From: a bacterium
GTDB lineage: Bacteria; Myxococcota_A; UBA9160; UBA6930
Direction: 5' to 3'
Assembly (NCBI GenBank): GCA_024228115.1
Contig: JAAETT010000428.1
Coordinates: 1-42,222, forward strand
DNA: 42,222 nt
The stretch's first letter is position 1. The number at the start of each line of letters is the position of its first letter. The notes under the pieces are model-generated. The model saw nothing but the letters and a program-made list of their open reading frames with translations. It ran no database searches and was not told where the DNA came from. The translations under genes and the position numbers were made by a program. Shown one piece after another: positions 31,467 through 32,917 of the stretch.

Positions 31467-32060
31467 CTAGACCGGACGGAGATCTAGGATCTCCCAACGG
31501 TCTCCAACCTCTTCGAGCGCGTATCGGGAGGCCTCCGCCTTGCAGCCGCCGGCGACGGAGAGCAGACGCACGCTGTGGTTCTCCCGGTGTCGAACTCGGA
31601 CGCGAAACCACCGGTTGATCTTTGGTTTCGGTAGAAGGCTCGATGCGGGCCGAGAGGCAATGCGGGGTGCTGCACCTTGGCGAGGATGCGTGCCGGAGCG
31701 TTGCTGACTTCTCTGCGCCTCGAAGGCGACGAGTTCCAGGAAATCGTTCCCGGCCTCGTTGATCACCATGCCGAGCGTCCAAGCCTCGGTGAGGCGGCTC
31801 GTCCGAGCCGTTCGCATCCGCCAGACGATGCCCTGAAGGCGAACCTGCTTTCGGCCGGGAGCGTCGATTCGGACGTGGATCGGGTCGCCCTCGTCCGCTC
31901 GGAACGGACTCTCCACTGCCAGGCCAGAGAGGGACACGTTGACCAGGATGCCCTTCTCCCAGCGGCGTCCTCGACGCAATTGGCAGCGAATCCGGCAGGA
32001 GTGGCGAGCGTTGTTCCTGCGTTCGCTGGCCCGTGCGGCGGAGCTGAGCCCATCATGCAT
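31467..32060 (-). CDS. PilZ domain protein with C-terminal module (paralogue of 32327)
   Basis: A 197-residue protein with an N-terminal PilZ domain that should bind cyclic di-GMP: Arg-Arg-x-x-Ala-Arg near residue 14-19 and Asn-Val-Ser-Leu-Ser-Gly. After a variable, basic linker, about 45 C-terminal residues open with Phe-Arg-Val-Arg-Val and end Trp-Glu-Ile-Leu-Asp-Leu. The same module ends the divergent neighbour. The frame is open far upstream, but the ATG at 32060 has GGGAGGAATTC before it and sets the natural N-terminus. Target of signalling unknown. Confidence 0.8.
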   Translation of the reverse strand: MHDGLSSAARASERRNNARHSCRIRCQLRRGRRWEKGILVNVSLSGLAVESPFRADEGDPIHVRIDAPGRKQVRLQGIVWRMRTARTSRLTEAWTLGMVINEAGNDFLELVAFEAQRSQQRSGTHPRQGAAPRIASRPASSLLPKPKINRWFRVRVRHRENHSVRLLSVAGGCKAEASRYALEEVGDRWEILDLRPV

Positions 32061-32326
32061 CCAGAATTCCTCCCAATCCGGAGTCGGCCACGTGGGTGGG
32101 GGACTTGAGGCCCTTCCCCTGCCCGCGAAATACTGGCTCGATCCGAAATGTCCCCGAAGATCAACAGGTTGCAGCGGTTCTTGCCAGATAGACGCAAGCT
32201 TTCGAAGGTGCTCAGTTTTTCGGCGCCAAGCCGGAATCTTCTGGGCCCAGCCAGGCCTTTCAGGTCCTCGAGGGAGCCCGGGGGGCGAGTGGTAACGCTT
32301 CGTCTTGGGCGACCGATAGGTAGTTG

Positions 32327-32917
32327 ATGGACCGAAGAAAGAATGGCCGGCGCATCCAGCGGCGGGCGCAATCCACGATTCGCCAGCGTGACGCGGACTA
32401 TCAGGGCATGATCCTGGATCTTTCCGAAGGCGGTCTGGCGGTCGTCTGCCCCGCCGATCTCGAGATCGGTAGCTCTGCGGAAATCGAGTTCCCCGGGTTG
32501 GGCCAGCCCGTCGTCGTGAAGGCCATGATCTGGAATCAACGCAAGGTGCGGTACCGCAGGGGCGAGAGCTTTGCCTACGGCTGCATCGTCGAGAATCCCG
32601 GAGCGGATTTCCTGGATCTGATACCTGACGAGAAACCCCACCAGGCAACCAAAATCGATTCGGCGGTCGCCGCTGCCGGCCAGACTGAAGGGCTCGAGGA
32701 AGCGCGCGCTGATCTGTCGGAGGCCCTGGAAGAATCAGCGGCTGCAGTTGAGCCCCGGAGCTTTCGAGTGCGGATTTGCCAACGTGCTGGCACGCGCACG
32801 AAGACGTTGACGCTGGTGGCCGCGAATGAGGACGAAGCCCGCGAAGAGGCCCAGGCGTCCCTGGGCCCCGAGTGGGATGTCCTCGAAGTGCTCGCCGGCC
32901 GCCAGAAGAGGCAGTGA
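32327..32917 (+). CDS. PilZ domain protein with C-terminal module (paralogue of 31467)
   Basis: A 196-residue protein. The PilZ domain keeps Arg-Arg-Ile-Gln-Arg-Arg near residues 8-13 and Asp-Leu-Ser-Glu-Gly-Gly near 31-36, both needed for cyclic di-GMP. An acidic Ala/Glu linker (about 105-143) leads to the C-terminal module that opens Phe-Arg-Val-Arg-Ile and ends Trp-Asp-Val-Leu-Glu-Val. It differs from its divergent paralogue in linker charge (acidic here, basic there). ATG 32327 is preferred over the TTG one codon earlier. A 39-nt hairpin overlaps its end. Confidence 0.8.
   Translation: MDRRKNGRRIQRRAQSTIRQRDADYQGMILDLSEGGLAVVCPADLEIGSSAEIEFPGLGQPVVVKAMIWNQRKVRYRRGESFAYGCIVENPGADFLDLIPDEKPHQATKIDSAVAAAGQTEGLEEARADLSEALEESAAAVEPRSFRVRICQRAGTRTKTLTLVAANEDEAREEAQASLGPEWDVLEVLAGRQKRQ

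Follow-up and report, generated by a model that had tools for sequence, protein, structure and literature searches.

Two genes lying head to head in the window (the whole stretch of 42,222 nucleotides analysed here), called A and B, each encode a PilZ domain, a linker and a C-terminal unit of about 47 residues, which raises the question of what this unit is and what such proteins do. PilZ proteins are among the commonest receptors of cyclic di-GMP (c-di-GMP) and, to our knowledge, the signal output of most of them is unknown. An earlier note on this DNA had proposed that A and B are a duplicated sensor pair acting, beside a bactofilin, on envelope or polarity functions. The positions of the features considered are presented in Table 1.

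Table 1. Genes and domains discussed in the text; positions preceded by an L label belong to other loci, all others to the window.
Feature	Position	Strand	Basis
Gene A, PilZ, basic linker and C-terminal unit, 197 aa	31467..32060	-	ORF, RBS-like GGAGG, Pfam PilZ
PilZ domain of A (Pfam-matched part), RxxxR and NxSxxG	31794..32024	-	E 6.2e-11, window-genome PilZ search
C-terminal unit of A, residues 148-197	31470..31619	-	unit profile
Divergent intergenic region between A and B, 266 bp	32061..32326	.	sequence
Gene B, PilZ, acidic linker and C-terminal unit, 196 aa	32327..32917	+	ORF (ATG at 32327), Pfam PilZ, orthologs
PilZ domain of B (Pfam-matched part), RxxxR and DxSxxG	32330..32557	+	E 1.1e-10, window-genome PilZ search
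C-terminal unit of B, beta-beta-alpha-beta	32753..32893	+	profile match, AlphaFold
Short PilZ-free unit-only gene	L114:1546-1950	-
Short PilZ-free unit-only gene	L115:1609-2151	-
Short PilZ-free unit-only gene	L176:2194-4668	-
Short PilZ-free unit-only gene	L180:1032-2015	+
PilZ part and unit in different frames	L109:1474-1913	-
C269, fourth unit protein of the window genome	L116:1134-1838	+
Gfo/Idh/MocA oxidoreductase gene of congener G003	L118:7075-8154	-
Unit-PilZ gene in AmtB-GlnK-like neighbourhood	L155:4654-8432		names read from sequence
Unit-PilZ gene in AmtB-GlnK-like neighbourhood	L156:6601-10439		names read from sequence

Both proteins match the Pfam PilZ model (PF07238) above its curated cut-off of 22.5 bits, A with 45.7 bits (E 8.7e-12) and B with 42.9 bits (E 6.5e-11), and both carry the c-di-GMP motifs that had been read from the sequence, namely RNNAR and NVSLSG in A, and RKNGR and DLSEGG in B. 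The RxxxR and (D/N)xSxxG motifs are retained together in 55 of 60 relatives, and given this conservation c-di-GMP is, judging from the motifs, the likely input of these proteins. Upstream of gene A, GGAGGAATTCTGG precedes the ATG, and there is a strong RBS-like GGAGG; Rfam and tRNA scans of the whole window gave no matches. Membership in TIGR02266, a Myxococcus paralogous PilZ-type domain and the sole NCBIfam model to give any match, was rejected, as A and B score 17.4 and 14.3 bits against a cut-off of 68.7.

A and B are 24% identical over an end-to-end alignment (BLASTP E 3e-13). The unit had been placed at about residues 148-197 of A and 144-192 of B, which is correct to within one or two residues, and its similarity between the two proteins goes far beyond chance, contrary to the refuting outcome named in the earlier note: the local alignment scores 62, compared with 20.9 +/- 4.1 for shuffled sequences, and none of 5000 shuffles reaches 62. 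A unit profile made without A and B matches B with E 1.5e-19 and A with 5e-11, the best of 2000 shuffled versions giving 0.057. Run on the window genome, the profile of the unit matches A at 31473-31616 with E 4.6e-17 and B with E 1.2e-19. With B and A as queries, full-length relatives were retrieved from a set of 61 related genomes, and in their alignment the PilZ domain is followed by a Pro/Ala-rich linker of varying length (8-75 residues) and then by the unit, whose consensus is F-R-V-R-V-K-Q-x-x-G-P-R-[TS]-R-x-L-x-V-x-A-x(5)-A-R-x-x-A-L-x-x-L-G-x-G-W-x-V-L-E-V. The opposite linker charges noted earlier do hold for A and B themselves (net +6 and -8), but not as a meaningful trait, given that linkers of the family range from -11 to +12 with a median of -1 (60 members).

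Structures were predicted with AlphaFold for B together with seven relatives. The model of B presents a confident six-stranded PilZ barrel, a disordered linker at residues 102-139 (pLDDT < 50, block value about 44) and, apart from the PilZ domain, a compact beta-beta-alpha-beta unit with strands at 144-152 and 158-165, a helix at 168-179 and a last strand at 183-190. Block pLDDT is about 84-91 for residues 144-190, and the isolated unit of B is predicted with a mean pLDDT of 89.3. When the whole B model was searched against the PDB, MapZ, BcsA and YcgR came first and MotI was also among the best, the best PilZ structure matches having E values of 1.3e-4 to 2.3e-4.

As had been supposed, the unit belongs to no named Pfam or NCBIfam family: Pfam gave nothing significant in the C-terminal parts of full A and B, and searches of Pfam, NCBIfam, PHROGs and PDB sequences returned no convincing family for it. 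The best PHROG is an unnamed family, matched with E 2.7e-4 from two of 32 members, and tblastn of the unit consensus in phage records yielded no match. The DpnD/PcfM-like family (PF14207), similar to the unit in size, gives the best of the weak Pfam matches, with five of the 32 units and E 0.0056 for the strongest, and was rejected because the curated cut-off is not reached and full A and B remain unmatched up to E 10. The PF14207 model also has no match at E 0.01 in 141 genomes of the phylum, including the window's, which is weak evidence of absence as control genomes were silent too. PaaB (PF06243) was likewise rejected as a homologue, with an hhalign profile-profile probability of 0.1 obtained from only four PaaB sequences.

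Fold searches of the unit against the PDB and viral models gave nothing below E 0.001. Its best PDB resemblances are to ribosomal LX/L18a, PaaB, a phage portal-vertex protein and T7 Gp2, none of them significant. Ribosomal LX/L18a and PaaB have the same beta-beta-alpha-beta layout, with TM-scores of about 0.6-0.8 and E values that are not significant; for the archaeal LX and eukaryotic L18a domains, TM is 0.64-0.80 by query length and the best E is 0.058. Among viral models, the unit resembles many small uncharacterised phage proteins, none at E 0.001. Given that beta-beta-alpha-beta is a small and common fold, these matches are taken as resemblance rather than as evidence of kinship.

The window genome has four unit copies (A, B, C54 and C269), each behind a PilZ domain, and only noise beyond these. 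In a search of 91 genomes of the class, the unit was found in 52, comprising 51 of 80 genomes of the window's order and one of 11 of the class's other genomes, with a single copy in many genomes and several paralogues in some. An even sample of 237 genomes of the phylum, in which the best 29 candidates per genome were scored, produced 27 positives, all in the window's class, and none outside it among those candidates. A scan of a genome collection with a five-row alignment gave nine loci, and the named relatives come mostly from metagenome-assembled genomes of Myxococcota or 'Deltaproteobacteria'. The unit is a real, uncatalogued and lineage-restricted domain.

The profile search for units without PilZ, suggested as a check in the earlier note, did find such copies, and they are rare. 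PilZ lies upstream and in frame in 72 of the 79 distinct unit ORFs identified; four (in G026, G229, G276 and G277) are PilZ-free, and the other three are incomplete, L109 being broken, with a PilZ remnant in another frame, and two running into contig ends. No PilZ was found in any frame of the flanking DNA fetched around the four PilZ-free genes. Their GC3 is 0.81-0.92 inside, and upstream this codon pattern is faint or absent, so that they seem to be short genes in their own right and not the tail ends of PilZ genes. One genus accounts for three of the four, and within it G229 and G277 have an upstream motif, TWDTQM, in common; the one at L115 lies just downstream of a groEL-like gene, in opposite orientation. 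The L109 case reflects either a frameshift in the gene or a faulty assembly. In C269, no RxxxR region is recognisable in the open frame, and its divergent PilZ domain is missing from the Pfam PilZ list of the window genome; this protein may be ligand-independent, or its start may be frameshifted or mis-assembled.

In 63 units compared for conservation, the core comprises F/Y/W4, V6, L19, V21, A29, A33, G38 and W41, and Lys or Arg occupies positions 5, 7, 9, 15 and 17 in 84, 90, 68, 87 and 89% of units, respectively, with acidic residues in 0-2%. By sequence alternation, residues 5, 7 and 9 of strand 1 would face away from the helix, and this, together with the conserved Lys/Arg, leads us to propose a basic docking face. 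B has Cys at unit position 9. The hairpin of A is degenerate (ENHSVR), with part of the R15/R17 pattern lost (HSVR), so the output of A may be changed or weakened.

We slightly favour the reading that A and B are lineage-specific, soluble and cytosolic c-di-GMP receptors, in which the linker-tethered unit docks on a partner through its basic face under the control of c-di-GMP. The N-terminal PilZ domain would bind c-di-GMP through RxxxR and (D/N)xSxxG, and the disordered linker would tether it to the beta-beta-alpha-beta unit as the output part. The unit would dock on a partner macromolecule by an exposed basic sheet face made of R5, R7 and K9 of strand 1 and R15 and R17 of the hairpin, and c-di-GMP binding would alter whether or how it docks. 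A and B would be old relatives placed head to head by happenstance, and the bactofilin a bystander. Support for this receptor family comes from the PilZ matches, the separately folding unit, the conservation of its core and basic positions, the predominance of units behind PilZ and the four standalone units.

The unit might instead be a nucleic-acid binding domain for RNA, the ribosome or DNA, making these proteins c-di-GMP-gated RNA- or DNA-binding regulators. This is unlikely; in its favour are the ribosomal LX/L18a-type domains among the best PDB folds, a weak Pfam Ribosomal_L18A match (0.2) in one unit member, and conserved basic residues with few acids. However, every fold match falls short of E 0.001, the fold is small and common, with phage proteins and PaaB among the matches too, the median net charge of the unit is merely about +1, and the weak sequence matches are no better than chance. 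We regard as rather improbable the further step that the order uses a c-di-GMP-gated family binding RNA or the ribosome, with an LX/L18a-like unit, and that the copies free of PilZ compete with the others or are ungated. The unit could also serve only oligomerisation or stability. That it is a homo- or hetero-oligomerisation module, joining PilZ proteins to one another (A with B) or to PilZ-free copies, is a shade less probable than nucleic-acid binding: several paralogues in one genome (the window's has four), PilZ-free units in some genomes and an open three-strand sheet able to pair are consistent with it, but many genomes have a single copy, and basic residues at the conserved exposed positions disfavour self-pairing of like faces.

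The earlier proposal of a recently duplicated head-to-head sensor pair working with the bactofilin in envelope or polarity functions was weighed against ancestry and neighbourhood, and now appears highly improbable. A tree of 60 rows divides the family in two with strong support (100/100), and the half that holds both A and B has 21 rows. B joins the orthologs of two congeners (100/99) and then members from other families, whereas A sits apart on a long branch within the same clade as B, and the two, at 24% identity, are not sisters in the best tree. Nevertheless, a tree constrained to unite A with the B group is worse by 6.3 log units (p-AU 0.154), so sisterhood is not formally rejected, and a single local duplication as the origin of A and B is neither supported nor excluded. 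B has orthologs in congener G003 (73% identity) and in G001 (46%), and no A ortholog was detected in four congeners, whose assemblies are incomplete. The gene order in G003, the nearest relative, runs metK-yajC-secD-secF, a Gfo/Idh/MocA oxidoreductase, B, bactofilin, a tolC-type gene, ispD and ispF, with the oxidoreductase between secF and B, the place A has in the window. The adjacency of A and B in the window and the B-bactofilin adjacency retained in G003 fit a functional pair, yet the bactofilin gene is convergent with B, and this adjacency was seen in the window and G003 only, the neighbours of other members examined being unrelated. Given the other gene in A's place in G003, the lack of an A ortholog in congeners and the varied neighbours of relatives, the bactofilin next to B is likely incidental. 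Since neighbours vary between members, there is no fixed operon partner among about 20 loci. The sole repeated neighbourhood besides the window's was seen in two genomes belonging to a single genus, with a unit-PilZ gene flanked by an AmtB-GlnK-like pair on one side and an amidohydrolase-like gene on the other.

Returning to the receptor reading, A and B resemble the PilZ receptors YcgR, MapZ, MotI/DgrA, MrkH and PlzA (PF07238) in having a PilZ domain, here the N-terminal half, with both c-di-GMP motifs. In YcgR, MotI, MrkH and PlzA, PilZ is joined to an N-terminal YcgR-N or PilZ-like domain; in A and B, by contrast, its partner is the small C-terminal beta-beta-alpha-beta unit. Myxococcus xanthus, which shares its phylum with the unit family's named relatives, has 24 PilZ proteins, including PlpA, PixA, PixB and Pkn1 (PMC8316039), and many PilZ proteins per genome are found in both, the window genome having 30 PilZ matches. 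The PilZ partner domains given in the portions of that source covered by a limited literature search are kinase, receiver, acetyltransferase and DnaK/DnaJ, and the unit is not named there (PMC8316039).

A and B are PilZ receptors of a known kind, and the novelty is the C-terminal unit, a real but modest extension. The A/B gene pair itself is nothing special, and it is the unit that merits its own family entry. Present in roughly two thirds of the genomes from a single uncultured Myxococcota-type order, and nearly always behind PilZ, the unit is a candidate output domain, open to modelling, mutation and use as bait.
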